Assembly: GCF_009026145.1 (NCBI RefSeq)
Contig: NZ_WBUE01000002.1
Location: forward strand, 186,001 to 250,000
Direction of reading: 5' to 3'
DNA: 64,000 bases
Source of the DNA: Hyphomicrobium sp.
GTDB taxonomy: Bacteria; Pseudomonadota; Alphaproteobacteria; Rhizobiales; Hyphomicrobiaceae
Position 1 is the stretch's first letter. The number at the start of each line of letters is the position of its first letter. Shown here one piece after another: positions 2,186 to 39,851 of the stretch. The notes under the pieces were generated by a model. It saw nothing but the letters and a program-made list of their open reading frames with translations, ran no database searches and was not told the DNA's origin. Position numbers and translations under genes: made by a program.

Positions 2186-2245
2186 ATGATCATCACGGCC
2201 ACGGAATCGGACACGGGGACTATGGGCTGTGCGGGGCACTGCTAA
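2186..2245 (+). CDS. Possible 19-residue leader peptide before the RND adaptor
   Basis: ATG with a CTGGAGAC ribosome binding site about eight bases upstream encodes a 19-residue peptide ending GCAGHC. Its TAA stop directly abuts an ATG in frame with the adaptor gene. The Cys/His-containing end and the abutment suggest a regulatory leader or translational coupling, but an ORF this short can arise by chance. Confidence 0.25.
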   Translation: MIITATESDTGTMGCAGHC

Positions 2246-2269
2246 ATGGAAATACTTGAGAGAGCTGTC

Positions 2270-4054: not shown

Positions 4055-4065
4055 GGAACGCCTCG

Positions 4066-7000
4066 ATGTTCAACTTCCTGGTCAGAAACAGCCTTAAGAA
4101 TCGCGTGTTCGTTCTCGCTGCCGCGCTCTTACTGATTGGCTATGGCAGCGTCGCTCTGCCGCGTCTGCCGGTGGACGTGTTCCCCGACCTCAACAAACCT
4201 CTCGTTACGCTCATGACCGAGGCCGAGGGGCTCGCGCCGCAAGAGGTTGAGCAGCTTGTCACTTACCCGATAGAAACGACGATGAACGGCATGCCTGGCG
4301 TCACGCGCGTCCGGTCCGTATCTGGCGTCGGCCTGTCGATCGTCTTTGTCGAGTTCGACTGGGGCACCGACATCTATCGCAACCGCCAGCAAGTGGCAGA
4401 GCGGCTCGCTCTGATCCAGAGCCAGCTTCCGCAGGGCGTACTCCCACAGATGGGGCCCATCTCGTCCATCATGGGCGAGATCATGCTCGTTGCCATCTCG
4501 AGCGACGGCCCGAGCCCGATGGACGTGCGGGAGATAGCTGACTTTGTGATCCGGCCGCAGCTCCTGGCGATCCCAGGTGTCAGCCAAGTGATCCCGATCG
4601 GGGGCGAGGTGCGACAGTATCGGGTGACACCCAACCTCGTCGCGATGCAGGCACTGGAGATCACCGCCGATACGATCGAGACCGCAATCAAGCGGTTCGG
4701 CTCCAATACCGGTGGCGGCTTCGTCGATCAGCACAGCCGCGAGTACCTCATCCGCAATGTTGGCTTGACCAACCGCCTCGAGGATCTCCGCAACGTGGTC
4801 GTCGCCTCCCGCGACGGACAGCCGATACTGTTGCGCCAAGTTGCCGAGGTGGATTTCGCTCCCCGCGTGAAGCGCGGAGACGCCGGCTTCATGGGCGCGC
4901 CCGCCGTTGTCATTTCGGTCCAGAAGCAGCCGGGCGCCGACACCATCAAGCTGACCAAGACAATCGAGACGACCCTCGCGGAGCTGGAGAAGACACTCCC
5001 GGAAGGAATCGCGGCGACCAACATACAGTTTCGGCAAGCAACCTTCATTGAGACCTCGATAGGCAATGTCGAAAAAGTCCTGGTCGAAGCCGCCGCCATC
5101 GTGGCGATTATCCTCATCGTCTTTCTCATGAATTGGCGGGCGACCATCATCTCGCTGACGGCTATTCCGATCTCAATTCTGATCACGGTCGTTGTGTTTC
5201 AGGCTTTCGGCCTCACGATCAACACCATGACGCTTGGCGGTCTTGCCATTGCCATGGGTGAGCTTGTCGACGACGCGGTCGTTGACGTCGAAAACGTCTT
5301 GCGGCGACTGAAAGAGAACTGCGCGGCATTACACCCTCAACCGGTGCTCGACGTTATCGCCCGTGCCTCTCAGGAGGTCCGCTCCGGCATCGTGAATGCC
5401 ACCATCATCATCGTGCTGGTGTTCGTGCCACTGTTTGCGCTGTCCGGCATTGAAGGCCGGCTCTTTTCGCCCCTCGGCGTTGCCTACATCGTGTCGATTC
5501 TGGGCAGCCTCATCACGTCGATCACGGTCACACCCGTGCTGTCCTACTATCTGCTCGCCAAGACAAGACACGCGGACGAGAAGGATAGCCTCGTGGCGGG
5601 CATCCTCAAGGCCGGCAACCGCAAGGCACTCGACTTCTTCTTCAACCACCCGATGCCGCTCATCAGCGTGATTGCGACCGCCGTGGTCGCCTCGGGCTAT
5701 GCGGCGACCTTGCTGCCACGTTCCTTCCTGCCGCCGTTCAATGAAGGCACGTTGACGATCAGCACACTCTTCAACCCCGGAATTTCACTGGCTGAATCGA
5801 ATCGGCTGGGTCTCATCGCCGAGCGCCTGATCCGCGAAGTGCCCGAAGTTGTATCCGTGGGCCGCCGCACGGGTCGCGCCGAATTGGACGAGCATGCGGA
5901 AGGCGTACATTCGAGCGAGATCGACGTGGACTTGAAGCGGTCGGAGCGACCGAAGGAGGCTGTGATGGCCGACATCCGGTCACGGCTATCCTCCCTGCCG
6001 ATGGCGGTCAACATCGGGCAGCCGATCTCGCACCGCTTGGACCACTTGTTGTCGGGCGTGCGCGCCGAAATTGCGCTCAAGGTTTACGGTGAGGATCTCG
6101 ACACCCTGCGCACGCTGGCCGAGACGTTGCGCGAAAAGCTGTCGCGCATCGACGGGCTCGTCGACCTGCAGATCGAGAAGCAGGTACGCATTCCCCAGCT
6201 TCGGGTTGCGGTCAATTACGAGAGGATCGCGCTTTACGGCATCACGCCCTCGGCGGTCACCGAGGCTCTCGAGGGTCTTTCCAATGGACGGGTCGTTTCG
6301 CAAATTTTGCAGGGTAATCGGCGCTTCGATGTGGTGCTCCGACTGCAGGATGCGGACCGCTCAACACAAGGGCTGAGCAAGCTCCTACTTCCCACGCCCA
6401 ACGGCTACATCCCCCTCGGTCTCGTCGCCACCGTCACCGAGGACGATGGGCCCAATCAGATCCTGCGGGAAAACGGGCAGAGGCGCATCGTGGTGCTCGC
6501 AAATAGCAACGGCCAGCGGGATTTGGCGAAGATCATCGCAGACATCCGCAGCGCCATTGCCACGACCCAGCTTCCGAGCGGCTACCGCACGAGCCTCGAG
6601 GGAACCTTCCAGGCGCAAGAGGAAGCGGCCTTGTTGATCGGACTCCTTTCGCTCATGTCGCTCGGGCTCATCTTCGTGGTGCTCTATACGCGCTACCAGT
6701 CGGTGATTTTGGCATTGATTATCATGGGCAACGTGCCGCTGGCGCTGATCGGCAGCATCATTGCGCTTTGGCTCGCCGGGCAACCCTTATCGGTGGCGAG
6801 CATGATCGGTTTCATCACGCTCACGGGCATCAGCGCGCGCAATGGCATCCTGAAAATCAGTCACTACATCAATTTGGCGCTCTACGAGGGAGAGACCTTC
6901 GGGCGGGCGCACATCATTCGCGGCAGCCTGGAGCGGCTGACGCCTGTCCTCATGACGGCACTTGCCGCGGGACTCGCCCTGATCCCGCTCTTGTTCGGTG

Positions 7001-13927: not shown

Positions 13928-16894
13928 CTAAATGATGTATCGGTCCCAGCCTGCATAAGCGTCCTTGACGCGTCCGCGGGGGATCGCCAACGCGATTAGC
14001 AGTGCACCGCCGATGACGCCGCTCCAGGTGGCGAGTGCCGAGCCGCTGCCTTCAAGCAGCCACGGTGCACCAATCAGCCAGGCGCCGAACAGAATATTGA
14101 TGAAGCGCACCGCGCGCGCGACCTCGGCGAAGGCCATGATCGAGAACACCACCACCAGAGAGCCCACCAGATGGTCGCTATCGGCCATGGCGCCCGAGTT
14201 GCCGAAGGTGAGCCGCGTCAGCATGAGCCAGACGCCAATCGCGCTACTCACCGCCAGCGTGACAGGGAAGCTCATGCCGCGGTCGGCCTCCCGCAGCATC
14301 TCGCCTACGGTTCCCAACAGACCTCTGGAGGAGTCGTCACTGCCGCCCTCCATCGCGTCCCCCATCAAGAAGGTGCGCCAGAACGGCTTACCTTGGCGGC
14401 GCGCCCAGACCAGGAATTGGCCCATTGCTACGAATTCGTCGAGCTGGTACGGGATCATGATTGTCATCGCCAGGGCCGCAATCAGGCAGAGCGTGCACCA
14501 GGTGCCGATAACGATCGGCTGGATGATGATGAAATAGATGCTCACCACGCCGAGCGGTACGATGAGGAAGGTGAGTGCCAGCACCATCCACGGCATGGTG
14601 CGCCAGCGGTCTTTGCCGCCCATCCAAGTCATCACCAGCTCGAGCATGTAAACGATGGCGCCCAGGGCCCCATCCGCAATCGGCCAAGCCTTGGAGACGT
14701 CTGAAGTGATGATCGCTTCGGTGCCATTCATGACACCTTTCATCTCGCCGCTGCCGGCGAAGAACGGCTCCCAGACGAAACCGACATGGCCTAGTTGATA
14801 GGCGCCGAGATAGCGGGCGATTAAAAATCCGAGAAAAGCGAGTACCGCGATCGGCGTGCGCTGTAGCCAGCTCGACGGGGTATACCCCCAACCCGGTGGG
14901 ATGTCGGGCTTGCCCATCATGCCTTCCATGCTCATGCCAGGCATCATTGGCACCAGCATCGAGAAGGCGATGACGAGCCCGCCGACCAGGGTGTCATTGG
15001 CATAGGCGGCGGGCAACGGCGTCCAGAATATTAGCGGCGCGAACAGCAGCCAGCCGCCGACGAAAGCGTTGGCCCATTGCGCCCAGGGAAAGCGGCGCGA
15101 CGAATCGAGGGACAATCTACTGAAAACGATCACCAGAACGCCACTGATGACATCGCTCCAGGTCATTGCCAGATTGCGCAGCTCGAACGACGGCAGCCCT
15201 CGCTCGGCCATGACGCGCAACTGGTCGGCATTGGGGACGAAATCGCTCAGATAGCCCAATGTCAGCGGGCTAGTTAGCAGCCAGAATCCGAGCATCAGGT
15301 TGAGGTAATGCGGCCACAGCATTTTGCGGTGGTCTTCGACCATCATGTCGGCATGGCCAGCCGCATGATCCATTGCGGCGCCGCGCGGCACGAGCGTCAT
15401 GCCGCATTTGGGGCAAGTGCCCGGCTCCTTGCTCACGACCTCGGGGTGCATCGGGCAGGTGTACTCGACCGCCTCCCCGGCATGCTTCATATCGCCGTGT
15501 CCGGCATGGTCTTCCTGCATGACCTTCCCCGGGACCTGGCGCAGTTCGAGCGGCATGCCGCATTTGGGACACCGGCCCGGTTCGCCGCTCGTGACCTCGG
15601 GGTGCAGCGGGCAGGTGCACTCGAGCGCCTCGGCCGGCAGCGTGGCAGGTTCCAGGGCCGTGCCGCAGCGCGGACAGTTGCCCGGCGAAGACTGAGCGAC
15701 TGTGGGGTGCATCGGGCAGGCATATACGCGGCGGCCTGATACGGTGAGCCGGGCGTCACCGTGCGCGTGCATGTGGCCGGAGGCGGGCGCGGGCTTGGTC
15801 GCCGGCACGGCGCGCTCCGCCCTTTTCTGCAAGGCTGATGGTGGCTCGAGGCCGTGCTCGCGGTACCAGCCGAGGGGATCGGCCTTCAATGCCGCAACCA
15901 TCTTCGGCATCGTCTCGCGCAGCGAGTGGCGCGGCTGCCAGCCGAGCAAGCTGCGGGCGCGCGTGATATCGAGCGCGTAGTGGTCATTGGCGCGGTCGAT
16001 CATCCAGGGCTTGATAAACGGATGCTGGCCGGGGATGTGGTCCTGAACCCAGGCCCCGATCTTCGCCATCAGCCAGGGGACATTCTGCGTCTCCCATGAC
16101 TCCTCGCCAATCAGCCGCCGGAACGTATGCTGCAGCTCGTCATAGCTGAGCGTCTCCGGCTCGCCGATCAGGATCGCCACCTCGGGCGGTAGCTTCGCTC
16201 GACGCTTGATGGTGCGCTCGATCGCGTCCACCACGTCGTCGAGATGAACGAAAGCCTGGCCGTGCGCGCTCGAGCCGGAGTAGAGGTGGCCAGCGAGCTG
16301 CCGCTCGTAGATGCGCTGGATCTGGTGGGCGAGCGGCGGGGAGTCGCAGACGTCGTTGTAGACCCCGGCAAGGCGCAGGGTCACGGCGGGAATGTCGCCA
16401 CGATGCTGCCGAATCAGCGCCTCGGTGCGCACCTTTGACTCGGGATAGGCCCAGGTCGGCCCGAGCGGCCAATCCTCAGTTATGAACTGCCCCGGCTCGC
16501 CCGGCCGGTGCACCAGCATGGTGCTCGAGAAAATGAACTGCTCGACCTTGAAGTGCTCGCGGAGCCCGAGCAACAGGCGTCGCGTGCCGTTGACGGTGAT
16601 CTCGTCGTATTTGCGGCTCGGTTGGCCGAGGAAATCGTAATACGCAGCCAGATGCACCACGCTGATGATGTGCGTCCCATGGTGCTCGCGCAAGACGAGC
16701 AGCCCTTCGCGGACGCTGTCATCGGAAGTAATGTCGACGGGTATGCGCACGCAGCCCGGTGGTGGCGGCGTAGGCGACTTGAGGTCGAAACCCACGACAT
16801 CGCTGAACTGACCGGTCAACCGCCGCGCCACTGCGCTGCCGATTCGGCCGTTGCTGCCGGTGACGAGGACGATACCCTTTGTCATCGCTGGCAT
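13928..16894 (-). CDS. Chimeric SDR epimerase / triple heavy-metal-binding / SPW-VKOR membrane protein
   Basis: A 988-residue multidomain protein. Residues 7-350: extended SDR/NAD-dependent epimerase with Rossmann motif TGSNGRIG and catalytic Y150-x3-K154 (YPESK). Residues 388-502: three heavy-metal-binding domains of the YxCPMHP...PGxCPxCGM type, separated by His-rich linkers. Residues 525-650: SPW-type helices (LMLGFWLLTSPLTLG, AFVGGWLLFAPLIFW). Residues 675-870: VKOR-like domain with C800-TL-C803 in a helix. The last 100 residues are a second SPW pair. The ribosome site is GGCGGAG. The first 515 residues lie in a 1601-bp repeat shared with the gene at 17038. Family knowledge suggests thiol redox plus metal binding at the membrane; the substrate of the SDR part is unknown. 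Confidence 0.85.
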   Translation of the reverse strand: MPAMTKGIVLVTGSNGRIGSAVARRLTGQFSDVVGFDLKSPTPPPPGCVRIPVDITSDDSVREGLLVLREHHGTHIISVVHLAAYYDFLGQPSRKYDEITVNGTRRLLLGLREHFKVEQFIFSSTMLVHRPGEPGQFITEDWPLGPTWAYPESKVRTEALIRQHRGDIPAVTLRLAGVYNDVCDSPPLAHQIQRIYERQLAGHLYSGSSAHGQAFVHLDDVVDAIERTIKRRAKLPPEVAILIGEPETLSYDELQHTFRRLIGEESWETQNVPWLMAKIGAWVQDHIPGQHPFIKPWMIDRANDHYALDITRARSLLGWQPRHSLRETMPKMVAALKADPLGWYREHGLEPPSALQKRAERAVPATKPAPASGHMHAHGDARLTVSGRRVYACPMHPTVAQSSPGNCPRCGTALEPATLPAEALECTCPLHPEVTSGEPGRCPKCGMPLELRQVPGKVMQEDHAGHGDMKHAGEAVEYTCPMHPEVVSKEPGTCPKCGMTLVPRGAAMDHAAGHADMMVEDHRKMLWPHYLNLMLGFWLLTSPLTLGYLSDFVPNADQLRVMAERGLPSFELRNLAMTWSDVISGVLVIVFSRLSLDSSRRFPWAQWANAFVGGWLLFAPLIFWTPLPAAYANDTLVGGLVIAFSMLVPMMPGMSMEGMMGKPDIPPGWGYTPSSWLQRTPIAVLAFLGFLIARYLGAYQLGHVGFVWEPFFAGSGEMKGVMNGTEAIITSDVSKAWPIADGALGAIVYMLELVMTWMGGKDRWRTMPWMVLALTFLIVPLGVVSIYFIIIQPIVIGTWCTLCLIAALAMTIMIPYQLDEFVAMGQFLVWARRQGKPFWRTFLMGDAMEGGSDDSSRGLLGTVGEMLREADRGMSFPVTLAVSSAIGVWLMLTRLTFGNSGAMADSDHLVGSLVVVFSIMAFAEVARAVRFINILFGAWLIGAPWLLEGSGSALATWSGVIGGALLIALAIPRGRVKDAYAGWDRYII

Positions 16895-16949
16895 GGCTGC
16901 AACTCCGCCTGATGTTGCATTGGGGGCCGACTATCGCCGCGTCTTCCTG
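15349..16949. repeat. 1601-bp direct repeat, copy 1
   Basis: From CGGCATGGCCAGCC to GTCGTCTTCCTG-type end, this segment matches 17607-19207 at a constant offset of 2258 bases. All ORFs in all frames of the track are duplicated with identical translations, so nucleotide identity is at or near 100 percent. It covers codons 1-515 of the chimeric gene plus about 55 bases upstream. Confidence 0.95.
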
Positions 16950-17037
16950 GTCGAGCAAGATGTCAAAGAAGTTGCGCGCGGCGGGCTCCGAGAGGGGATT
17001 GTCACCGACACGAAAAGGGTCATTGTTTCGTCTCTGG

Positions 17038-19152
17038 CTAGGGGGAAACGCGCTGATCGAGCGCGTCGTAATCCACAGCTTGCATGTTAGAAGATGCCTT
17101 CATAAACGCGACGATGTCCCAAATCTCCTGATCGGTCAGAGACGACCCCCAGGCCGGCATGCCGGTGAACCTGATGCCGTTCTTCGTCACCCAGAACAGC
17201 TCGGCGGCAGTCATATCGCTCACCAACTCGGCAAGCGGAGGCGCTTCCGGATTGAGCCCTTTCGACATCATCGTTACCTGCCAGCTGGGCGGGGTATGGC
17301 ACATGGCGCATTGATCTCGGAAGAGGCGAAAGCCGTTCTCCACCCGTCGCGCCTCGCCAAGGCGCGGCACCTGGATGTCCTTAGCGTGGCGGCGCACAGA
17401 GGCTTCGCGTGTGGTGATCAGTACCCATCGCAGTGGCGCCGCGTCGCTCACCGTCGCGGCGACGTTGAAGACGCCTGAGTAAATCACTGCAAGCGCCACA
17501 AGCACGCCGAGGAGGGGCCCGAGAACAGTGTAGATGAGCAGTGCAGCAAGTATCGGTTTCCAGGTCCCCGGCCCAAAGATTGCACGCCCGGCATGCGTGA
17601 TGTGCCCGGCATGGCCAGCCGCATGATCCATTGCGGCGCCGCGCGGCACGAGCGTCATGCCGCATTTGGGGCAAGTGCCCGGCTCCTTGCTCACGACCTC
17701 GGGGTGCATCGGGCAGGTGTACTCGACCGCCTCCCCGGCATGCTTCATATCGCCGTGTCCGGCATGGTCTTCCTGCATGACCTTCCCCGGGACCTGGCGC
17801 AGTTCGAGCGGCATGCCGCATTTGGGACACCGGCCCGGTTCGCCGCTCGTGACCTCGGGGTGCAGCGGGCAGGTGCACTCGAGCGCCTCGGCCGGCAGCG
17901 TGGCAGGTTCCAGGGCCGTGCCGCAGCGCGGACAGTTGCCCGGCGAAGACTGAGCGACTGTGGGGTGCATCGGGCAGGCATATACGCGGCGGCCTGATAC
18001 GGTGAGCCGGGCGTCACCGTGCGCGTGCATGTGGCCGGAGGCGGGCGCGGGCTTGGTCGCCGGCACGGCGCGCTCCGCCCTTTTCTGCAAGGCTGATGGT
18101 GGCTCGAGGCCGTGCTCGCGGTACCAGCCGAGGGGATCGGCCTTCAATGCCGCAACCATCTTCGGCATCGTCTCGCGCAGCGAGTGGCGCGGCTGCCAGC
18201 CGAGCAAGCTGCGGGCGCGCGTGATATCGAGCGCGTAGTGGTCATTGGCGCGGTCGATCATCCAGGGCTTGATAAACGGATGCTGGCCGGGGATGTGGTC
18301 CTGAACCCAGGCCCCGATCTTCGCCATCAGCCAGGGGACATTCTGCGTCTCCCATGACTCCTCGCCAATCAGCCGCCGGAACGTATGCTGCAGCTCGTCA
18401 TAGCTGAGCGTCTCCGGCTCGCCGATCAGGATCGCCACCTCGGGCGGTAGCTTCGCTCGACGCTTGATGGTGCGCTCGATCGCGTCCACCACGTCGTCGA
18501 GATGAACGAAAGCCTGGCCGTGCGCGCTCGAGCCGGAGTAGAGGTGGCCAGCGAGCTGCCGCTCGTAGATGCGCTGGATCTGGTGGGCGAGCGGCGGGGA
18601 GTCGCAGACGTCGTTGTAGACCCCGGCAAGGCGCAGGGTCACGGCGGGAATGTCGCCACGATGCTGCCGAATCAGCGCCTCGGTGCGCACCTTTGACTCG
18701 GGATAGGCCCAGGTCGGCCCGAGCGGCCAATCCTCAGTTATGAACTGCCCCGGCTCGCCCGGCCGGTGCACCAGCATGGTGCTCGAGAAAATGAACTGCT
18801 CGACCTTGAAGTGCTCGCGGAGCCCGAGCAACAGGCGTCGCGTGCCGTTGACGGTGATCTCGTCGTATTTGCGGCTCGGTTGGCCGAGGAAATCGTAATA
18901 CGCAGCCAGATGCACCACGCTGATGATGTGCGTCCCATGGTGCTCGCGCAAGACGAGCAGCCCTTCGCGGACGCTGTCATCGGAAGTAATGTCGACGGGT
19001 ATGCGCACGCAGCCCGGTGGTGGCGGCGTAGGCGACTTGAGGTCGAAACCCACGACATCGCTGAACTGACCGGTCAACCGCCGCGCCACTGCGCTGCCGA
19101 TTCGGCCGTTGCTGCCGGTGACGAGGACGATACCCTTTGTCATCGCTGGCAT
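17038..19152 (-). CDS. Chimeric SDR epimerase / triple heavy-metal-binding / membrane cytochrome c
   Basis: A 704-residue protein identical over residues 1-515 to the gene at 13928: SDR epimerase with YPESK, then three CPMHP/CPxCG metal-binding domains. The C-terminal part differs: a transmembrane helix at about 531-557 (LLIYTVLGPLLGVLVALAVI), a juxtamembrane YSGVFNVAATVSD block, and a cytochrome c domain with C615-AM-C618-H619 and a likely axial Met in TGMPAWG. Membrane-anchored cytochromes with this YSGVxxVAA...RWxLxTT layout are known by themselves; the fusion to an SDR is unusual. An N-terminal SDR lacks a signal peptide, so the topology is a puzzle: the cytochrome must be periplasmic to receive haem. 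It lies 97 bases downstream of the SH3-like gene. Confidence 0.85.
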   Translation of the reverse strand: MPAMTKGIVLVTGSNGRIGSAVARRLTGQFSDVVGFDLKSPTPPPPGCVRIPVDITSDDSVREGLLVLREHHGTHIISVVHLAAYYDFLGQPSRKYDEITVNGTRRLLLGLREHFKVEQFIFSSTMLVHRPGEPGQFITEDWPLGPTWAYPESKVRTEALIRQHRGDIPAVTLRLAGVYNDVCDSPPLAHQIQRIYERQLAGHLYSGSSAHGQAFVHLDDVVDAIERTIKRRAKLPPEVAILIGEPETLSYDELQHTFRRLIGEESWETQNVPWLMAKIGAWVQDHIPGQHPFIKPWMIDRANDHYALDITRARSLLGWQPRHSLRETMPKMVAALKADPLGWYREHGLEPPSALQKRAERAVPATKPAPASGHMHAHGDARLTVSGRRVYACPMHPTVAQSSPGNCPRCGTALEPATLPAEALECTCPLHPEVTSGEPGRCPKCGMPLELRQVPGKVMQEDHAGHGDMKHAGEAVEYTCPMHPEVVSKEPGTCPKCGMTLVPRGAAMDHAAGHAGHITHAGRAIFGPGTWKPILAALLIYTVLGPLLGVLVALAVIYSGVFNVAATVSDAAPLRWVLITTREASVRRHAKDIQVPRLGEARRVENGFRLFRDQCAMCHTPPSWQVTMMSKGLNPEAPPLAELVSDMTAAELFWVTKNGIRFTGMPAWGSSLTDQEIWDIVAFMKASSNMQAVDYDALDQRVSP

Positions 19153-27670: not shown

Positions 27671-28018
27671 TCAAATTCGCGGTGGTGGGGTCGGTGGTCG
27701 CCAGTTCAGCCCATGAGGCATCGGGGGCACGATGCCACTCAATGCGGCGTGGCCGATCAGCGCTACGGGGAAGAATACGTCGGAAGCAAAACCTGTTAGT
27801 GAGCAGTTCATGCTGCACATGGCCGCGACGCATTTGCCAATCTTATCGCAGCAGGGGCACGGCTTGTCAGTCGACGACGTCCTAGCCGGCCCGGCGTGGT
27901 CTCCGGCGTGACTCATGAGAGTTGCCGGCGCTGCGGCCACGGCGTTGGCGGGTGCGACGGGTGAGAGCACGAGCCCGACGCTGACGAGAGCGGCAATAAT
28001 CAATCTGACGATCAGCAT
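27671..28018 (-). CDS. Exported Cys-rich small protein (CPCCD...C type)
   Basis: Start chosen at ATG 28018 where the signal peptide begins (MLIVRLIIAALVSVGLVLSP). The central motif is KPCPCCDKIGKCVAAMCSMN with a further Cys, six cysteines in about 20 residues, followed by a hydrophobic segment and a Pro-rich tail (PPTPPPR). Paralogues lie at 28533, 35621 (more divergent) and in the chimera at 36321. No named family was recognised with confidence. The motif suggests copper or zinc binding, and two of the paralogues flank the Cu efflux operon. Confidence 0.65.
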   Translation of the reverse strand: MLIVRLIIAALVSVGLVLSPVAPANAVAAAPATLMSHAGDHAGPARTSSTDKPCPCCDKIGKCVAAMCSMNCSLTGFASDVFFPVALIGHAALSGIVPPMPHGLNWRPPTPPPRI

Positions 28019-30021: not shown

Positions 30022-30459
30022 TTACTCGGTGGCGAAGACCGCTGGCGCGGCGTCCTGGCCCGTTATCGAGAGGATCTCGAATGAGCCCGTCTTGCTGCCG
30101 GACATGCCGGGCGAACCGGGCGGCATTCCCGGCAGCGTAATGCCCTTGATGGCCGGCTTCTCACTAAGCAACCGATTGATCGAGCCCACAGGCACGTGCC
30201 CTTCCACTACGTAGCCGCCGATCACCGCCGTGTGGCAGCCTTCGAGATTCTTGCCAACGCCGTACTTCTGTTTGATCGGCGTCATGTCCGGCGCCTCGAT
30301 GACGGTTACGTCAAAGCCATTGGTGCGCAGGTAGTCGGCGTATTTTTTGCAGCATGAGCAGTTTGGGATCTTGTACAACGTGGCCGCGACTCTTTCCTCG
30401 GCCATGGCGGACAGCGTTGCGAGCGCGAGCACCAGGCTCGCCGTAACCATGCGGATCAT
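30022..30459 (-). CDS. DUF411 metal-binding protein (CopG-like)
   Basis: A 145-residue exported protein: signal peptide MIRMVTASLVLALATLSAMA, then IPNCSCCKKYADYLRTNGFD with the CxCC metal site of DUF411, and GCHTAVIGGYVVEGHVP, the second conserved block. Relatives in copper-resistance clusters bind copper and help detoxification. The start overlaps the cusA stop by four bases (ATGA), so it is translated from the same transcript as the Cu/Ag efflux genes. Confidence 0.9.
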   Translation of the reverse strand: MIRMVTASLVLALATLSAMAEERVAATLYKIPNCSCCKKYADYLRTNGFDVTVIEAPDMTPIKQKYGVGKNLEGCHTAVIGGYVVEGHVPVGSINRLLSEKPAIKGITLPGMPPGSPGMSGSKTGSFEILSITGQDAAPAVFATE

Positions 30460-33400
30460 GCTTCGACCTCCTCTCTGGAGCTTTCATTGCATTGGGCTTC
30501 CCCTTCACGGCCAACGCGCGGCAGGCGCCAGCCTTTGATGAGGCCGTAGATGGCGGGAATGACGATGAGCGTCAGCAGGGTCGAGGAGACCATGCCGCCG
30601 ATCATCGGCACCGCGATGCGCTGCATCACCTCCGAGCCGGTGCCGGTGCTCCACAGGATGGGCAGCAGTCCGGCAATGATGGCGACGACGGTCATCATCT
30701 TGGGGCGCACGCGCTCCACCGCGCCTTCCATGATCGCCGCGTGCAGATCGGTGCGCGACAAGGGGCGCCCTTCCCGCTGCGCGCGCTCTCGGGCCTCGTT
30801 CAGCGCCTGATCGAGGTAGATGAGCATGACGACGCCCGTCTCCGCGGCGACGCCGGCGAGGGCGATGAAGCCCACCGCGACGGCGACCGAAAGGTTGAAG
30901 CCGAGCCACCACATGAGCCAGAAGCCGCCGACGAGCGCAAAGGGCAGCGACAGCATGACGATCAGCGTCTCGGTCCAGCGGCGGAAGTTCAGGTAGAGCA
31001 GCAACACAATGATCAACAGCGTCACCGGGACGACGACCTTCAACCGCTCCTTGGCGCGCTCGTAGTATTCGAACTGGCCGCTCCAGGTGACGTAGTAGCC
31101 GTCGGGCAGCTTCACCTGCGCGGTGACCGCGCGCTGCGCGTCGGCGACGTAGCTGCCGAGGTCACGATCGCGCACGTCGACGAAGATGTAGGCGACGAGC
31201 TGCGCGTCCTCGGTGCGGATGGAGGCGGGCCCTTGCGTGCGCTTCACCGTGGCGACCTCCCCCAGCGGCACCGTGCCGCCACCGGGAAGGGTGACGAGAA
31301 CATCCCGCGCGATCGCGTTCGGATCGGAGCGCAGCTCGCGCGGATAGCGCACGTTGACCGCATAGCGCTCGCGCCCTTCGACGGTCGTGGTCACCGTCTC
31401 GGCGCCGAGCGCGGTGGCGACGACGTCCTGCACGTCGCCCACCATCAGACCGTAGCGGCCGAGCTGATCGCGCTTGGGCTCGATCTCGAGATAATAGCCG
31501 CCGATGACGCGCTCGGCGTAGGCGCTGGCGGTACCCGGTACGTTGCGCAGGGCCACCTCGATCTCGCGGGCGCTACGCTCGATCTCCTTCAGATTCTGGC
31601 CGAACACCTTGACGCCGATGGGCGTGCGGATGCCTGTCGCAAGCATGTCGATGCGCGCCTTGATGGGCATCGTCCAAGCATTGGAGACGCCCGGGAACTG
31701 CAGCGACTTGTCCATCTCGCCGATGAGCTTGTCGGTCGTCATGCCGGGGCGCCATTCGCTTGCGGGTTTGAGATTGATGACGGTCTCGAACATCTCGGTC
31801 GGCGCCGGGTCGGTGGCAGTCGCCGCGCGCCCCGCCTTGCCGTACACGGACTGGACCTCTGGGAAGGACTTGATAATCCGGTCCTGGGTCTGCAGCAGCT
31901 CGGCTGCCTTGGTGATGGAAAGGCCGGGGAGCGACACCGGCATATAGAGCAGCGTGCCTTCGTTGAGGTTGGGCATGAACTCCGACCCGAGCTTGGCCGC
32001 CGGCCAGATGCTGATGGCGAGCACCACCATCGCCAGCGCGATGGTCAGCGTCTTGGCTTTGAGCACGGCGTCGATCACCGGGCGGTAGACCCAGATCAGG
32101 AAGCGGTTGATAGGGTTCTTCTGCTCGGGAAGGATTTTGCCGCGCACGAAGATCACCATCAGCGCCGGGACGACGGTCACGGACAGGAAAGCCGCCGCTC
32201 CCATGGCGAAGGTCTTGGTGAAGGCAAGCGGCTTGAACAGGCGCCCTTCCTGCGCCTCGAGCGTGAAGATGGGCAGGAACGACACCGTGATGATGAGGAG
32301 CGAGAAGAACAGCGCCGGCCCGACCTGGGTCGCGGCCTCGATCAGGATCTCCATGCGCGGCTTATCGGGTGGCGCGCGCTCGAGATGCTTGTGAGCGTTC
32401 TCGATCATCACGATGGCCGCGTCCACCATGGCGCCGATGGCAATGGCGATGCCGCCGAGGCTCATGATGTTGGAGCTGATCCCCAACAGATACATGCACA
32501 CGTAGGCGATGAGCACGCCCAGCGGCAGCGTCAGAATGGCGACGAAGGCGCTGCGCGCATGCAACAGGAACACGACGCACACGAGCGCCACGATGAGGCT
32601 TTCCTCGGTGAGCGTGCGTTTGAGGGTTTCGATCGCCCGCTTGATCAGCTCCGAGCGGTCGTAGACGGGAATGATTTCCGTGCCGTCCGGTAAGCTCGAT
32701 TTGATCTCCTCCAATCGCGTTTTGATGTCGTCGATGACCGCGAGCGCATTTTGCCCATAGCGCTGCACGGCAATGCCGGAGACTACCTCTCCCTCACCGT
32801 TGAGCTCGGTGATGCCGCGGCGCTCGTCTGGGGCCAATTCCACGCGCGCCACGTCGCGGAGATAGACCGGTGTGCCGTTCTCACTCTTCAGAACGATCTG
32901 CTCGAGATCCTTGATATTCCTGATGTAGCCGCGCCCGCGCACCATGAACTCGGTCTCGGCGAGCTCGACGACGCGCCCGCCGACGTCCATGTTCGAATCA
33001 CGAATCGCGTCCTTGATCTTGGCGAGCGAGATGTTGAAGGTCTTGAGCCGGCCGGGATCGACCACAACGCTATACTGGCGCACGAACCCGCCGACGCTCG
33101 CGACCTCAGCTACCCCTTCTGCCTTCGCCAGCGCATAGCGCACCTGCCAGTCCTGAATGGTGCGCAGGTCGGCCAGGTTCCGCTCTGCGGCCATGACCGC
33201 ATACTGGTAGACCCAGCCGACGCCCGTGGCGTCGGGGCCGATGGTCGGGGTGACGTTGCGCGGCAAGTTGCGTGCGGCGAAGCTCAGATATTCGAGCACG
33301 CGCGAGCGCGCCCAGTAGATGTCCGTGCCTTCCTCGAAGATGACGTAGACGAAGCTGACGCCGAAGAACGAGAACCCGCGCACCACGCGCGACTTCGGCA

Positions 33401-33626
33401 CCGAGAGCATGGCCGTGGTCAGCGGATAGGTGATCTGGTCCTCGACCACCTGTGGGGCCTGGCCCGGCGCCTCCGTATAGATGATGACCTGCGTGTCCGA
33501 GAGGTCGGGAATGGCATCAAGCGGCACGTTCCTGATGGCGTAGATGCCGGCGCCGGTGGCAAACACGGCGCCGAGCAGGACCAACATGAGGTTGTTCGCC
33601 GACCAGCGGATGATCCAGGCAATCAT
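30456..33626 (-). CDS. cusA: Cu(I)/Ag(I) efflux RND pump CusA
   Basis: The true start is ATG 33626 (MIAWIIRWSANNLMLVLLGA), overlapping the cusB stop by ATGA; the tracked ORF to 34151 is an antisense-of-cusB style extension in another frame and is rejected. About 1056 residues, the full HME-RND length. The TM4 motif GAMVDAAIVMIENAHK is that of the monovalent-cation branch (Cu, Ag). Two periplasmic porter regions and twelve helices are readable. It works with CusB and an outer-membrane channel not found here. Met-rich relay residues were not individually assigned. Confidence 0.93.
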   Translation of the reverse strand: MIAWIIRWSANNLMLVLLGAVFATGAGIYAIRNVPLDAIPDLSDTQVIIYTEAPGQAPQVVEDQITYPLTTAMLSVPKSRVVRGFSFFGVSFVYVIFEEGTDIYWARSRVLEYLSFAARNLPRNVTPTIGPDATGVGWVYQYAVMAAERNLADLRTIQDWQVRYALAKAEGVAEVASVGGFVRQYSVVVDPGRLKTFNISLAKIKDAIRDSNMDVGGRVVELAETEFMVRGRGYIRNIKDLEQIVLKSENGTPVYLRDVARVELAPDERRGITELNGEGEVVSGIAVQRYGQNALAVIDDIKTRLEEIKSSLPDGTEIIPVYDRSELIKRAIETLKRTLTEESLIVALVCVVFLLHARSAFVAILTLPLGVLIAYVCMYLLGISSNIMSLGGIAIAIGAMVDAAIVMIENAHKHLERAPPDKPRMEILIEAATQVGPALFFSLLIITVSFLPIFTLEAQEGRLFKPLAFTKTFAMGAAAFLSVTVVPALMVIFVRGKILPEQKNPINRFLIWVYRPVIDAVLKAKTLTIALAMVVLAISIWPAAKLGSEFMPNLNEGTLLYMPVSLPGLSITKAAELLQTQDRIIKSFPEVQSVYGKAGRAATATDPAPTEMFETVINLKPASEWRPGMTTDKLIGEMDKSLQFPGVSNAWTMPIKARIDMLATGIRTPIGVKVFGQNLKEIERSAREIEVALRNVPGTASAYAERVIGGYYLEIEPKRDQLGRYGLMVGDVQDVVATALGAETVTTTVEGRERYAVNVRYPRELRSDPNAIARDVLVTLPGGGTVPLGEVATVKRTQGPASIRTEDAQLVAYIFVDVRDRDLGSYVADAQRAVTAQVKLPDGYYVTWSGQFEYYERAKERLKVVVPVTLLIIVLLLYLNFRRWTETLIVMLSLPFALVGGFWLMWWLGFNLSVAVAVGFIALAGVAAETGVVMLIYLDQALNEARERAQREGRPLSRTDLHAAIMEGAVERVRPKMMTVVAIIAGLLPILWSTGTGSEVMQRIAVPMIGGMVSSTLLTLIVIPAIYGLIKGWRLPRVGREGEAQCNESSREEVEA

Positions 33627-35119
33627 TGGCCAGCCTCCGCACCGGATTTCATCTCCTGATCTTTCGCGCCAGGCTCGCCGGGAGCGAACCCCTTGAGGGC
33701 GGCCCGCAGATTGCTTTCCGCGTCGATGAGGAAGTTTGCCGCGGTGACCACCTTGTCGCCGGCCTTGACCCCCTCGGTCACCTCGCGGAACCCGTCTCCG
33801 TGCTGCCCGAGCTTGACCTCGCGCGGCTCGAAGCGGCCGTCGCCTTTGTCGAGAATGACCACCTGGCGCGTTCCGCTGTCGATAACGGCACTGTTCGGCA
33901 CCGCCACGACCTCGCGATCGGCGCCGGCCGTGATCTCGACGTCCGCATACATGTCGGGTAGCAGCGCCAGATCGGGATTGGGCAGCTCGATGCGGACGGG
34001 GGCGGTACGCGTCTCCTTGTTGAGATGCGGATACACGACGGCGACCTTGCCGCGGAACTCCCGGTCCGGGTAGGCGCGGGCACGCACCGTTACCGGCTGA
34101 CCGACCTTGAGGGCGCCAAGCTCGGCCTCCGGCACGTCGGCCATCACCCACACGTACGAATGGTCGGCAATGCGGAACAGCACTTCGCCGGCCTGCGCGC
34201 GCATGCCCTCGACGGCGGTGCGATCGAGAACGATCCCGTCGTTCGGCGCGCGCCAGACGATGGTATCGGGAACATTGCGCGTGCGTGCGATACCATCGAT
34301 GACGTCCTTCGGGATCTTCATGTTCTCCAGGCGCCGCCGCGCCCCGATGACGGGTGCGCGCGTGCGCGCACTTTCTGCCGCTGTCCGCCTGCCAGAGGCG
34401 ATGGGTCCCCAGCCCGTCTCTTCCTCGACGACCAGCCGGGCGCCGATGGAGAGCAGCTCGGGCGCATAGATCGTCATCAGCGGCTCGCCCGCCTTGACAT
34501 GCGTTCCGGTCGTGACGTCCGCGACCTTCTCGAGATAGCCGTCGAAGCGCAGGGCGATGACCGAGATGCGCCGCTCATCCAGCTTGACGATGCCGGGTGC
34601 GCGCACGGTATGGCCCAAGGTGCGCTTTTTCACCTCCTCGCTGCGCACGCCGCTGCGCTGGATCTTCTCCGGCGAGATGCTGACGCTGCCCGCGTCGTCC
34701 TCGCCTTCGTAGACGGGGATGTAGTCCATCCCCATGGAGTCCTTCTTCGGCACCGGGGAGATGTCGGGCAGGCCCATGGGATTGCGGTAGTAGAGGATCT
34801 TCTTCTCGCCCTGGCCGGAATTGGCTGGTGGCGCTGCGGCAGCTTTGCTCGGCTCGTCTAAGCGCACGTCTTCGCTCGCATGCACGGCGAGATACGGTTT
34901 TCCGGCTTCGGTGCTCTTGGGTGTTAGCGAGTAGAACGGTTTGCCATCGGGATCACGGTAATAGATGACCGGACCCGTGGCTTTGGAGGCCGATGCGCTC
35001 ATCACCGCTGCGGAGTTTGGTGGCAGCCTGATGAGACCAGTCTGACCAGACCAAAGCCCGGCTCCCGCCGCAGCCGCAATGACTGCGGCGGTTGCCACGC
35101 CCTTCAAGGCGCCGTTCAT
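33623..35119 (-). CDS. cusB: Cu(I)/Ag(I) efflux periplasmic adaptor CusB with heavy-metal-binding domain
   Basis: A 498-residue membrane-fusion protein. N-terminal anchor or signal (LKGVATAAVIAAAAGAGLW), a degenerate metal-binding repeat (YYRDPDGKPFYSLTPKS, about 52-70), a canonical YYRNPMGLPDISPVPKKDSM metal-binding domain at about 109-137, then the CusB adaptor core (VRAPGIVKLDERRISVIALR, lipoyl and beta-barrel domains). It starts and ends with four-base ATGA overlaps with its neighbours, so stoichiometry is probably set by translational coupling. The first repeat lacks the Met/Cys ligands. Confidence 0.92.
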   Translation of the reverse strand: MNGALKGVATAAVIAAAAGAGLWSGQTGLIRLPPNSAAVMSASASKATGPVIYYRDPDGKPFYSLTPKSTEAGKPYLAVHASEDVRLDEPSKAAAAPPANSGQGEKKILYYRNPMGLPDISPVPKKDSMGMDYIPVYEGEDDAGSVSISPEKIQRSGVRSEEVKKRTLGHTVRAPGIVKLDERRISVIALRFDGYLEKVADVTTGTHVKAGEPLMTIYAPELLSIGARLVVEEETGWGPIASGRRTAAESARTRAPVIGARRRLENMKIPKDVIDGIARTRNVPDTIVWRAPNDGIVLDRTAVEGMRAQAGEVLFRIADHSYVWVMADVPEAELGALKVGQPVTVRARAYPDREFRGKVAVVYPHLNKETRTAPVRIELPNPDLALLPDMYADVEITAGADREVVAVPNSAVIDSGTRQVVILDKGDGRFEPREVKLGQHGDGFREVTEGVKAGDKVVTAANFLIDAESNLRAALKGFAPGEPGAKDQEMKSGAEAGQ

Positions 35120-35620: not shown

Positions 35621-36007
35621 TCAGACGCTAGGAGGTCGGAGAAGCGGGGGGATGAGAGAGTCGGCCGCAACCTGTGGCGCCGCGGGCAGCAGTCGCGAGC
35701 TTGCCACCCTGCTCTGTGGGGGCGCATCTGCTACGGGCGACGACAGAGGCTGGAAGCAGGTAACCAGGCAAGTGCCCATATCCGGGCACACCTTCTGCGG
35801 GCAATCAGGGCACGGGTTCGCGGGCTTATGGCAGGGCATCTGCTCGGATGCCGCTGCCGCAGACGTCGAAGTGGCCATCGCCAGGGCGACAGACGCCGTC
35901 ATCGGCATAGCAATAAGCGCCCCGAGCATGGCAAGCATGCCCAGGACCGCAAAACAGCGATGGAATAAACGTCTGCTCACGGGAAAAGACTGCCATACCT
36001 TCCGCAT
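35621..36007 (-). CDS. Exported Cys-rich protein upstream of the Cu efflux operon
   Basis: About 128 residues from ATG 36007; the tracked start at 36028 is TTG. A hydrophobic helix (CFAVLGMLAMLGALIAMPMT) is followed by MPCHKPANPCPDCPQKVCPD and MGTCLVTCF, seven cysteines with one His, then a variable tail. It is more divergent than the 27671/28533 pair but has the same layout of signal, Cys cluster and Pro-rich end. Metal binding is inferred. It lies 110 bases upstream of the FixH-like gene on the same strand, so it may share its promoter. Confidence 0.6.
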   Translation of the reverse strand: MRKVWQSFPVSRRLFHRCFAVLGMLAMLGALIAMPMTASVALAMATSTSAAAASEQMPCHKPANPCPDCPQKVCPDMGTCLVTCFQPLSSPVADAPPQSRVASSRLLPAAPQVAADSLIPPLLRPPSV

Positions 36008-36320
36008 CCACGCAAATGATACGTCCAATGGCGTTGCTGACCGGTGAATTAACCGTAACCTGTGGTGAGGTGCTTACGCTTTTCGTGGGGCAAGCGAACA
36101 CCGTCTGCTCTAGGTTGCCGTTCACGGCGCGTGGAGTGTGACTGGAGTTCCGCCGACAGCTGACCTCATCGACGGCTGCGTGATCCTCGCCGCGCCAGAT
36201 CCGTGAGAACGGGCATGACTCTCGAGTTCTACTAGCTCGTTGCAGTGCGAGATGCGTTCATTGCATCCAAACCCAAGAGTGCCAACATTAAACAAAGTGG
36301 CTCACAGGGATGAGCGGTTG

Positions 36321-36686
36321 ATGCGCATGCGGATCCTCAGATCGATCCTTGCCGCCCTTGTTAGCATTGGGCTCGTACTTGCGCCCATCCCTGGCGCCAG
36401 TGCGATTGGATCGATGCAGTCCGCAATGACCGACGACGCGGCGCACACCCCTAAGTCAACATCACCCATCAAAAAGTCTTGTCCCTGCTGCGATGTCGGC
36501 AAGTGCGTCGCGGCGGCGATGTGCACAATGAGCTGCGTGCAGTTCGCGTCCGCGCATGGCGGGGACCGGCGCATTTGGGACATCGAGGAGCTCGACCTCG
36601 CCTTCAAGGCGCTGCCGCGCGAAGGTGGGGAGGCTGAGCCGATCTTCACCTCCGGCGAAACGGACAGCTGGGCTGACTTCACGTGA
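36321..36686 (+). pseudogene. Chimeric ORF: Cys-rich exported protein joined to the end of an excisionase-like protein
   Basis: The ORF opens like the 27671 family (MRMRILRSILAALVSIGLVL, then KKSCPCCDVGKCVAAAMCTM). After about 36555 it turns into RRIWDIEELDLAFKALPREG and ends SGETDSWADFT, which is the usual C-terminus of small HTH/excisionase proteins preceding integrases in Alphaproteobacteria. Its stop overlaps a GTG start of the integrase fragment, as in the natural excisionase-integrase pair. So the junction near 36555 joins two unrelated genes in frame. Confidence 0.65.
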
Positions 36687-36842
36687 CGATCGTCAAGCTG
36701 AAGCACGTCGATGCCTTCACCGACCGCCACGGCCGTCGCCGCTACTATTTCCGCAAGGGCAAGGGTGCGCGCATCGCCTTGCCAGGGACGCCCGGATCTC
36801 CGGAATTCCTCGCCGCCTACCAGCGCGCCCTCAATGGCCAGC
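36683..36842 (+). pseudogene. Tyrosine recombinase (integrase) N-terminal fragment
   Basis: GTG start; the product begins MTIVKLKHVDAFTDRHGRRR, then YYFRKGKGARIALPGTPGSP and EFLAAYQRAL. This is the typical N-terminal strand and core-binding start of Rhizobiales phage-type integrases. Homology ends near 36842, where IstB sequence begins in another frame. The catalytic domain is gone. Confidence 0.8.
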
Positions 36843-36845
36843 CCA

Positions 36846-37095
36846 CTGCGACGTCGCCGAAGGTACGCACCGCAGCGTTGCCGAGTGGGGCACCGTGTTC
36901 GCCGATCCGGTCGTGGCGACCGCCATCCTCGACCGGCTGCTGCACCACAGCCACGTGCTGACGATCCGCGGCGACAGCTACCGGCTCCGCGCCAAGCGCA
37001 AGAGCGGCCTCATCAAGCCGCCCGCCGGTGACGGGCCTGCGGTCGGCTCCGCCTCCCTTCGTCCCGCCACCGGTGATCATCAACCGACACCATGA
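36846..37095 (+). mobile_element. IstB (IS21 helper ATPase) C-terminal fragment
   Basis: In the frame of ORF 36556-37095, the sequence SVAEWGTVFADPVVATAILD then RLLHHSHVLTIRGDSYRLRA and KRKSGLIKPPA is the C-terminus of an IS21-family IstB. The ATPase motifs are absent. Its left end is the junction with the integrase fragment; its right end abuts the inverted repeat of the next IS. Confidence 0.85.
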
Positions 37096-37133
37096 CCCAA
37101 GTGAGAGCAGTTCTTCATGACGCAAAGGGGCGC

Positions 37134-38812
37134 ATTGCCTCATCAAAGTTGTTACCGAATAAGCTGACCGTCACGGGTGCGGGGCCGCCGGGGAATCAGG
37201 TCGCTGGCGCCCATGATGGGGCGGATCAGCATGCGCGCACGGCGCGAACTCGTGGCCGCGGTAGCGGACCGCTATCGCATGGCGGAGCGGATGGAGAAGG
37301 GCCGGATCCTCGACGAGCTCACGGCCGTGACCGGGTGGCACCGCAAGCATGCCGTGCGGGTGCTCAACCCGGAGAGGGCACGGCCGAGGATGCGGCGACC
37401 GCCGCGACGGATCTACAGCGAGGCCATTCGCGACGCGCTGATCGCCCTGTGGGAGGCTTCCGATCGCGTGTGCGGGAAGCGTCTCAAGGTCATGATCCCG
37501 GTCCTGCTGCCGGCGCTGGAACGCCACGGACGACTGAACCTCGGCGAGGCCGATCGAGCTCTCGTGCTGACGGCCAGCGCGGCAATGATCGACCGGATGC
37601 TGCGCGACGTTCGCATCGCGGCCCGTGGCGGCCGGCGCCGGCGCGCAGGATTCTCATCGGCGGTGCGTCGTGAGGTGCCAATTCGGACCTTCAACGACTG
37701 GGGCGATCCGCCACCGGGCTTCTGCGAGGCCGATCTCGTCGCGCACGGCGGCGTGTCGGTCACCGGCGCGTTCATCCAGACGTTGACGATCGTCGACGTA
37801 GCCACCGGCTGGACCGAATGCTTGCCGTTGTTGGTTCGCCAGGCGACGCTGGTCGTGCAGGCGATCGAGCGGGCACAGAGCCTCTTTCCCTGGCTGATCT
37901 GCGGGCTCGATTTCGACAACGACAGCGCGTTCATGAACGATGTCGTGGTGCCCTGGTGCCGGGCGCACGGCATCGCGGTCACGCGCTCGCGCGCCTATAA
38001 GAAGAACGACCAGGCCTTTGTCGAGCAGAAGAACGGGGCAGTGGTCCGCCGATTGGTCGGCTACGGCCGGTTCGAGGGCATCGAGGCGACGCGCGCGCTG
38101 GCACGCCTCTTTGCTGCGGCGCGGCTCTACGTGAACTTCTTCCAGCCCTCCTTCAAGCTGAGGGAGAAAGCGGCGCGAGGGTGCCAAAATCATCAAGCGC
38201 TACCACGCGCCGGCGACACCCTGCGAGCGCGCTCTGGCACACCCGGCGATCAACAAGGCCATCAAACGCAAGCTGCGCGAGATGCGGCGCGGTCTGGATC
38301 CGGTCGCCTTGCTGGCGGAGGTGCGCGAGGCCCAGGCGCAACTGGGCAAGCGCGTCGACCGACGCGCCGGATCGCCAATCGAGTCACCTACCAACGAGGC
38401 GACGTTCACGAGCTTCGCCGAAGGGCTTGGCAAGGCGTGGGAAACGGGTGAGCGGCGGGCCATACATCGCCGGCCCTACGTCCGGCGCAAGCCCGTGCCG
38501 CGGCGCGCCTCGATGCTGGACCCGTACGTCGCCACGATCGAGGCATGGCTCGCGGCCGAGCCACACCTCACGGCTGTCGCCATCATAGATCGGCTTCGTC
38601 GATGCACGCCGGATGCCTTCGGCGACCGGCAGCTGCGCACGCTGCAGCGTTTCGTGAAGTCCTGGCGAGCCAGGACCGCCAAGCTGCTGATCGACGGTGC
38701 GGAGGCGGTGATCAACATCGACGCGCCTGCTTCCGTCCCGGCCGGGACGGAAGCAGGCAGAACGCACCAAACACCGATGCCACGCCTCGGTAACATTGCT
38801 CCGTGAGGCAAT
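37134..38812 (+). mobile_element. Insertion sequence with integrase-core transposase, bounded by inverted repeats
   Basis: The left end ATTGCCTCATCAAAG then GTTACCGA and the right end, read inverted, ATTGCCTCACGGAG then GTTACCGA give imperfect terminal inverted repeats of about 24 bases around one transposase gene. No clear target-site duplication was seen. The IS interrupts nothing obvious but abuts the IstB relic. Confidence 0.75.
37213..38806 (+). pseudogene. Integrase-core (DDE) transposase with a frameshift
   Basis: The first part (MMGRISMRARRELVAAVADR on) has an HTH region and an rve-type catalytic core: D in CEADLVAHGG, D in GLDFDNDSAFMND, E in FVEQKNGAVV. Near 38165 the frame must shift by one to continue REGAKIIKRYHAPATPCE, then MRRGLDPVALLAEVREA up to the stop inside the right inverted repeat. 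Total length would be about 530 residues. A frameshift near the end of the core probably inactivates it, although programmed frameshifting cannot be excluded by reading alone. Confidence 0.75.
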
Positions 38813-38894
38813 ACGAGGGGGCAGTTCTGGATGGCGTTTGACAGTGTAGTGATAGGATGAGCTGCTGAGAAACCGCTTACATCGGAGAGAAGCT

Positions 38895-39104
38895 ATGGCC
38901 GATCACGTGTACAAGCACATCCAACTCACGGGGACGTCCGCGGTCTCAAGCGACGATGCGATTCGGGCCGCAATTGCCAAGGCCGCGAAGACGGTACGTG
39001 GGATGCGCTGGTTCGAGGTGATCGAAACACGAGGACATATCGAGGACGGCGCCATCAACCACTGGCAGGTTTCAATCAGAGTGGGATTCACGCTGGAAGA
39101 CTAA
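38895..39104 (+). CDS. Dodecin family protein (second)
   Basis: A 69-residue dodecin: VYKHIQLTGTSAVSSDDAIR, RWFEVIETRGHIEDGAINHW and QVSIRVGFTLED match the beta1-alpha-beta2-beta3 layout and the Trp involved in flavin stacking. The ribosome site GGAGAGAAGCT precedes ATG. It shares only moderate similarity with the dodecin at 23057, so they are old paralogues. It follows the IS right end by about 80 bases. Confidence 0.9.
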   Translation: MADHVYKHIQLTGTSAVSSDDAIRAAIAKAAKTVRGMRWFEVIETRGHIEDGAINHWQVSIRVGFTLED

Positions 39105-39119
39105 CTCGGTGAACCGGTC

Positions 39120-39250
39120 ACCGGGGGCGCTAGCGCTGTCTTGCTCTTGGAAGGTGGGGAGGATGCGGACAGTGGCGGATTTGGTTTGGGTGGTTTTTCT
39201 CAGCCGAACCGCTTCCGCCGGATCAACGATGTTCGCGCAGCTCATTCGAG
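39120..39250 (-). pseudogene. Fragment related to the end of the 40952 gene
   Basis: The minus frame reads KTTQTKSATVRILPTFQEQ, matching TTLTKTATVRIIPTFQEK at the C-terminus of the protein encoded at 40952. Nothing upstream aligns for more than a few residues. A third trace (ILPTFSAKR) lies at about 40905-40940. So the same gene end occurs three times within 2 kb. Confidence 0.6.
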
Positions 39251-39354
39251 ACCTTTCGCCCAGTCGTCCCATGCGTGCCAGCACTCTTACTCCCGTCACG
39301 TTCTCACGTGACGAGCCGGTGGGATGAGGCCGGGCGTTGTGATATAATTTCGAT

Positions 39355-39582
39355 ATGATCAAGGTGCTGGAGGATGCCCTCAAAAAAGTGCGGGAACTGC
39401 CGGAGGAGCGGCAGGAGTTCGCCGCGGAGGTCCTGGAGACGATCGTCGCACAAGACGATGGCGTATATCACCTGACCGACGAAGACCGCACCGAGGTGCG
39501 CGCAGGGCTCGCCGAAATCGAGCGCGGGGAAATCGCGAGCGACGAAGACGTTGCGGCCATGTGGAAGCGCTTCGGTCTATGA
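39355..39582 (+). CDS. Antitoxin of a ParDE/RelBE-like pair
   Basis: A 75-residue acidic protein (MIKVLEDALKKVRELPEERQ, EFAAEVLETI, C-terminal DEDVAAMWKRFGL). The size, helical N-terminus and disordered acidic tail fit a type II antitoxin, and its stop overlaps the toxin start by ATGA. Antitoxins of this class usually repress their own operon. The sequence before the start (GTGATATAATTTCGAT) has a TATAAT-like -10 element. Confidence 0.8.
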   Translation: MIKVLEDALKKVRELPEERQEFAAEVLETIVAQDDGVYHLTDEDRTEVRAGLAEIERGEIASDEDVAAMWKRFGL

Positions 39583-39851
39583 CCCTGCGGTATTCGGCGC
39601 GAGCGCGCACACAGATCGATTACATTTTCGGTTGGTTGTCGGAGCGGAATGTTGGTGCAGCCCACGACGTAGTGTCGGCGATTGCGGGAGTTCTCAAAGC
39701 AGTCTCGAAGTGGCCGGAGATGGGGAAGGCGACTGAAGAAGGGGACGTGCGCGTCGTGATCGTGCCGCGCTATTTGTTTCGCATTTTCTATCGCGTCGAA
39801 GGCGACACTATTTTCGTCATTCGAGTGCTGCACCCGAGGCAGGAGCGGTAA
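39579..39851 (+). CDS. ParE/RelE-superfamily toxin
   Basis: A 90-residue protein: LRYSARARTQIDYIFGWLSE, the central EEGDVRVVIVPRYLFRIFYR and the C-terminal FVIRVLHPRQER are typical of the ParE/RelE fold, including the Arg/Tyr block and the final HxRQ. ParE members poison gyrase, RelE members cut mRNA; which applies cannot be told here. Co-translated with the antitoxin by a four-base overlap. Such pairs often stabilise islands. Confidence 0.88.
   Translation: MTLRYSARARTQIDYIFGWLSERNVGAAHDVVSAIAGVLKAVSKWPEMGKATEEGDVRVVIVPRYLFRIFYRVEGDTIFVIRVLHPRQER

Follow-up and report, generated by a model that had tools for sequence, protein, structure and literature searches.

The window analyzed here, a stretch of 64,000 nucleotides from Hyphomicrobium sp., holds a patchwork of truncated genes and mobile elements on its forward strand. 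An initial annotation described it as Cys-rich, excisionase, integrase, IstB and IS pieces joined to one another, and we found a match for each of these pieces. The first is the 5' part of a gene for a small, secreted Cys-rich protein (CPCC...MCTMSC) at 36,324-36,551, which starts at about position 36,324 and whose 3' end is gone. Contig C51 of this genome carries a full-length paralog (81% identity over 316 bp), and the match to it ends at 36,551. Further on, positions 36,557-36,833 match the contiguous and intact excisionase-integrase modules of four related genomes (L007-L010) with 69-74% identity. In one of them, L007, profiles identify the two genes as a member of the excisionase family (TIGR01764, E 2.6e-5) and a tyrosine recombinase (PF00589, E 2e-22). 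What is left of this module in the window is the C-terminal part of the excisionase-type gene (36,557-36,686), intact in the four relatives, and the N-terminal part of the tyrosine integrase gene (36,683-36,865), which also matches intact genes there. The GTGA at 36,683-36,686, where the integrase gene overlaps the excisionase stop, is a natural overlap, since the relatives in which both genes are whole show the same one; it survives here even though both partners are cut, as the initial annotation had pointed out. The arrival of this piece as an attachment-site insertion was considered and rejected, because the excisionase comes without its start.

These pieces meet at two joints. Joint 1 (36,552-36,556), between the end of the C51 match and the start of the module match, fuses the Cys-rich gene in frame to the tail of the excisionase. 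Joint 2 (36,866-36,869) connects the head of the integrase, whose match ends at about 36,833-36,865, to the tail of istB, whose match begins at 36,866-36,869. Two in-frame joints had been announced. The one between the Cys-rich gene and the excisionase is indeed in frame, but the one between the integrase and istB is not, because the two genes are in different frames. The position originally given for the former (about 36555) holds, whereas the latter had to be moved from 36845 to about 36,866-36,869.

Searching for the junctions in other genomes, as had been suggested, did not reveal the joined arrangement as a real gene in many species: it is absent from 60 relatives and from 103 genomes of the family, and the exact junction strings had no match in viral contigs. 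Relatives carry either the excisionase-integrase part or the istB part, and never the joint between them. Given that no other genome searched has the joined arrangement, joints 1 and 2 look like private deletion scars. They look like separate events, each a single deletion or recombination. It is improbable that they were made by errors in the assembly. The genome is a draft of 63 contigs with an estimated contamination of 5.29%, and the joints are carried by no other genome searched, but both lie inside a contig of 307 kb and the pieces that they connect are diverged single-copy remnants, while repeat-induced chimeras usually look otherwise.

Additional Cys-rich sequences occur in the window. 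A short stretch at 27,803-27,865 is 76% identical over 63 bp to the cut Cys-rich gene, and another small ORF, for a secreted protein also rich in Cys, lies on the minus strand at 35,621-36,028. Both are near heavy-metal RND efflux genes (30,456-34,151, ACR_tran). On the minus strand at 13,928-19,152, two adjacent long ORFs have in common an N-terminal epimerase and a heavy-metal-binding domain (HMBD), and differ in their C-terminal parts (VKOR/SPW in one, cytochrome c in the other). They may be tandem duplicates that have swapped their C-terminal parts, or else a fused gene.

An IS1202-type element in the end of an IS21

The istB tail belongs to the 3' part of an IS21-family element (36,869-37,130, plus strand), which is about 87% identical to IS21 tails of Bradyrhizobium plasmids. 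It includes the inner terminal repeat and, before it, the C-terminus of IstB (36,869-37,095, with the stop at 37,095), which matches positions 192-237 of the 238 in profile PF01695 (E 5.6e-16). Only this part of IstB and the right end remain of the element; they fit the istB helper ATPase and the TGT...ACA multi-repeat ends that characterize the family. An uninterrupted version of the same end is available at locus L025, where an intact IS21 (1,992-4,297) scores above the cut-off for both IstA and IstB, has a 7-bp outer repeat GGCAAGT, and has an end that reads ...GACGCAAAGGGGGCAGTTCCGGATGGCGTTTGACA. In the window, this end is broken after AAAGGGG by 1,685 bp and then continues with AGGGGGCAGTTCTGGATGGCGTTTGACA to position 38,843. 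The part that follows the interruption (38,816-38,843, plus strand) is the outer tip of the same IS21; it ends in TTTGACA and is also found in the intact element of L025. Its first five bases, AGGGG (38,816-38,820), adjacent to the right end of the inserted element, duplicate the AGGGG at 37,126-37,130, of which the uninterrupted end in L025 has a single copy.

Compared in this way with the intact IS21, the third joint is a simple insertion into the right end of an IS21, with a 5-bp target-site duplication AGGGG. The stitched junction initially placed at 37134 is instead this clean insertion, with IS21 sequence up to 37,130 and again at 38,816-38,843. The order of events is partly fixed: the IS21 preceded the insertion of the IS1202-type element. 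The locus had also been read as a recombination hot spot. As a single phenomenon this reading is neither supported nor needed: the locus consists of two scars and the outcome of a different process, transposition. The ends of IS21 elements hold the repeats L1/L2 and R1/R2 (PMC10122671), and it is the outer and the inner repeat that the insertion separates. The IS21 family, defined by istA/istB and whose IstA resembles the Tn7 and Mu transposases (PMC10122671), is here the host and the target, not the mover. Directly downstream of the tip (38,895-39,851) we found an intact dodecin gene, then a ParE-type toxin and a likely antitoxin.

The inserted element (37,131-38,815, plus strand) is of the IS1202/ISNCY type. 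Its ends are CGCATTGCCTCA(7)TGTTACCG and CGTATTGCCTCA(8)TGTTACCG, with inverted repeats of the form CGYATTGCCTCA...TGTTACCG, and the imperfect inverted repeats CGCATTGCCTCATCAAAGTTGTTACCG and CGTATTGCCTCACGGAGCAATGTTACCG fit the range of the IS1202 family (about 22-29 bp). The DDE transposase gene (37,177-38,806, plus strand; rve PF00665, E 2.2e-8) is frameshifted at about 38,160-38,185, which leaves two ORFs, 37,177-38,451 and 38,282-38,806. The copy in the window, which is the sole one in its genome, is thus probably dead. The transposase is 34% identical over 335-387 aa to that of ISLbi1, which is annotated as ISNCY-like, and its relatives include other elements annotated as ISNCY. By this comparison with ISLbi1, and by its rve domain, it lies within the 25-60% identity reported for the transposases of the IS1202 family. 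A sequence search of the PDB returned only weak matches to retroviral integrases. The 5-bp duplications, AGGGG in the window and NGGGG in L022, L024, L177, and L185, are those of the subgroup with short target-site duplications (3-5 bp). Identical cores of 1,790 bp with differing flanks set the ends of the core at 5'-CG, unlike the TGT/ACA ends of the ISAjo2 type. Targeting of pdif sites was rejected, since a search allowing up to 7 mismatches gave no dif-like site next to the element in the window, whose flanks are IS21 ends.

In the tree of the transposases, the element groups with IS21-associated elements of Bradyrhizobium, the next group being the elements of Rhizobium and Novosphingobium found between two IS21-type tips (see below). 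A sister clade and a deep branch of other phyla are separate. The local support for the exact position of the window element is low (0.41), and the larger groups are well supported.

Recurrence at IS21 ends and shells lacking istAB

We gathered copies of the element from plasmids and genomes using the transposase, the DNA, and a pattern of its terminal sequences that is blind to the flanks. In Bradyrhizobium sp. 62B (L022), an element 69% identical in DNA provides an independent repeat: it interrupts this IS21 at exactly the same base, again with AGGGG. In at least about 15 loci (the window, L022, L053, L071, L171, L176-L180, L183, L185, L218, L220, and L224), remnants of istA or istB lie no more than about 150 bp from the left end. 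On the other side, 32 of the 38 distinct right flanks among the matches listed have an ACA that ends 26-29 bp out, for a background of 2.6% at other offsets. Nearly all of these are an IS21-type tip at 27-29 bp, in copies from Bradyrhizobium, Rhizobium, and Novosphingobium. The other 6 of these 38 listed flanks lack a strict tip: those of L071, L118, and L183 look like decayed tips, those of L181 and L195 do not. In L181, the copy is bordered on both sides (3,456-3,501 and 5,291-5,340) by one and the same unrelated sequence, GGCGCGCCATAAAAACAAWCACKATCATCGAATATGCGTCAGAG, which is more than 40 bp long and inverted on one side relative to the other, as though this copy lay inside the ends of another element. 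In the sister clade, an ACA at 26-29 bp is found in 2 of the 15 flanks among the matches listed, and at least one of these two cases (L146, whose flank is the same as that of L089) is an end of the clade-A type.

The right end of the insertion sequence faces the tip of the IS21 and its left end faces istAB. Insertions occur at both ends of the IS21, in several IS21 lineages: L177 and L178 are on the istA side and L179 and L180 on the istB side, and the same contrast between left and right end separates L053 and L071 from the window and L022. Copies that share an IS21 lineage are not independent, as they could have travelled inside the IS21, and a conservative count gives about 9 events. We found no report of IS21 ends as targets of insertion sequences in the open-access literature. 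The recurrence of these flanks indicates that the preferred target is very probably the point where the outer tip of an IS21-family element meets its inner terminal repeat, entered in a fixed orientation and with an NGGGG duplication, and that the host IS21 is possibly hollowed into a shell.

Shells are units in which the insertion sequence lies between two IS21 tips and istAB is gone. The cores of L180 and L219 are 100% identical over 1,790 bp, and that of L177 is 99.8% identical, with different flanks: L180 is in a right IS21 end, L177 in a left one, and L219 between a right-type and a left-type tip without istAB. Since these near-identical cores carry different flanks, the 28-bp tips are not part of the insertion sequence. 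Arrangements like that of L219 are found in L228, L184, L168, L223, L103, L357, L358, L359, and L361. In L228, the element is surrounded precisely by the two tips, left and right, of an IS21 of the L025 type, with a 4-bp repeat GGTT outside. Outer repeats of 5 bp are present in L103, L358, and L361, and reading the tip of L357 as 27 bp gives such repeats there too. The tips of the Rhizobium and Novosphingobium shells are IS21-like, but our searches retrieved no intact IS21 that bears them.

Could the 28-bp tip be the outer inverted repeat of the IS1202-type element itself, its likeness to IS21 being a coincidence among TnsB-like transposases with TGT...ACA ends? There are indeed tips to either side of the core in Rhizobium, in Novosphingobium, and at some loci of Bradyrhizobium, and some of these units have outer direct repeats of 4-5 bp. 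Yet we regard this as very improbable in view of the cores of L177, L180, and L219, and of those of L358 and L361, which are 96% identical and have the two tip types in opposite order. The same observations, identical cores with different flanks and swapped tips, led us to reject the Rhizobium tips as the element's own repeats. Moreover, the sequence to the left of the element is the interior of an IS21 in the window, L022, and L053, and an empty IS21 end free of the element exists. For Bradyrhizobium, this explanation is already contradicted. Even less credible is the absence of any targeting, whereby insertions in IS21 ends would merely survive because these ends are abundant and dispensable. 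Plasmids of Bradyrhizobium are full of IS21 copies, and tolerance could contribute in part. However, tolerance predicts insertions anywhere in the IS21 and in both orientations, whereas we observed one position and one orientation, at both ends and in diverged lineages; the fixed distance and orientation are left unexplained by it.

A proposed mechanism and its relation to known systems

From these sequence comparisons, we propose that a clade of the IS1202 family seeks out the ends of IS21 elements and is able to hollow these out. The transposase would recognize the IS21 end, either as DNA or as DNA bound by IstA, and the element would insert at one end with its right end toward the tip and a 5-bp NGGGG duplication. 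The free left end might then attack the same preferred site in the opposite end of the IS21, intramolecularly. This second attack would delete istAB and leave a shell, which is the simplest path to such units.

The IS1202 family was proposed by Harmer, Pong and Hall in 2023 (PMC10132070), who showed that elements of the ISAjo2 type lie in a single orientation at 5 bp from the XerC site of a dif or pdif site. They found no target for the groups with long or no target-site duplications, and did not mention IS21. Our element resembles the ISAjo2 type (PMC10132070) in its large DDE transposase, related at the family level, in its imperfect inverted repeats of about 27 bp, and in its 5-bp duplication. 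It also shares with it a fixed short distance and a fixed orientation relative to a special site, with no accessory targeting gene. In contrast, its target is an IS21 end rather than dif/pdif, its ends are CG rather than TGT, and it is found in shells devoid of istAB. Insertion into the ends of other mobile elements has a precedent in IS4321/IS5075, of the IS1111 type, whose specific insertion sites are the terminal inverted repeats of transposons of the Tn21 family. In this respect, the two systems are alike. However, IS1111-type elements rely on a DEDD transposase together with a guide RNA (PMC11187229), whereas we find a TnsB-type DDE transposase and an IS21 host.

In the branch of other phyla (L049-L166, L277-L356; Syntrophales, Spirochaetes, Dehalococcoidia, Nitrospirae, and others), one end of the element lies upstream of a sigma70-like promoter, at a fixed distance from it. 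These promoters point away from the insertion sequence; the -35 box begins 15-16 bp from its end, and in some lineages the distance is 5 bp. A score of at least 9/12 was reached by 63% of 65 flanks (12% when shuffled), and by 70% of 66 new flanks (13% when shuffled and 6% further out). We do not claim that the clade of the window hunts promoters through the TTGACA of IS21 tips, the best score beside the right end in the window being 8/12.

These observations lead to a broader reading that we hold only tentatively. IS1202-like transposases might be fixed-distance hunters with one landmark per clade, namely dif (as published), IS21 ends, or sigma70 promoters, and the IS21-hunting clade might turn its host into a hollow shell that carries it and is possibly mobilized by IstAB provided from elsewhere. 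With IS21 ends as the landmark of one clade, TnsB-like transposases that work alone, with no Tn7-type helper proteins, would have a second class of target, and the way in which targets are recognized becomes accessible to tests. Should the shells prove mobile, the ends of one insertion sequence would have been taken over by another.

In Bradyrhizobium and Rhizobium, copies of the sister clade (L199, L207, L144, L214, L169, L170, and L363) have recurrent flanks of their own, GCGRCRATCAGGRTGAGA, which point outward and are present at both ends in several loci. This suggests another preferred target, perhaps the ends of another element, and a possible empty site for these flanks is found in L118 (2,634-2,673).
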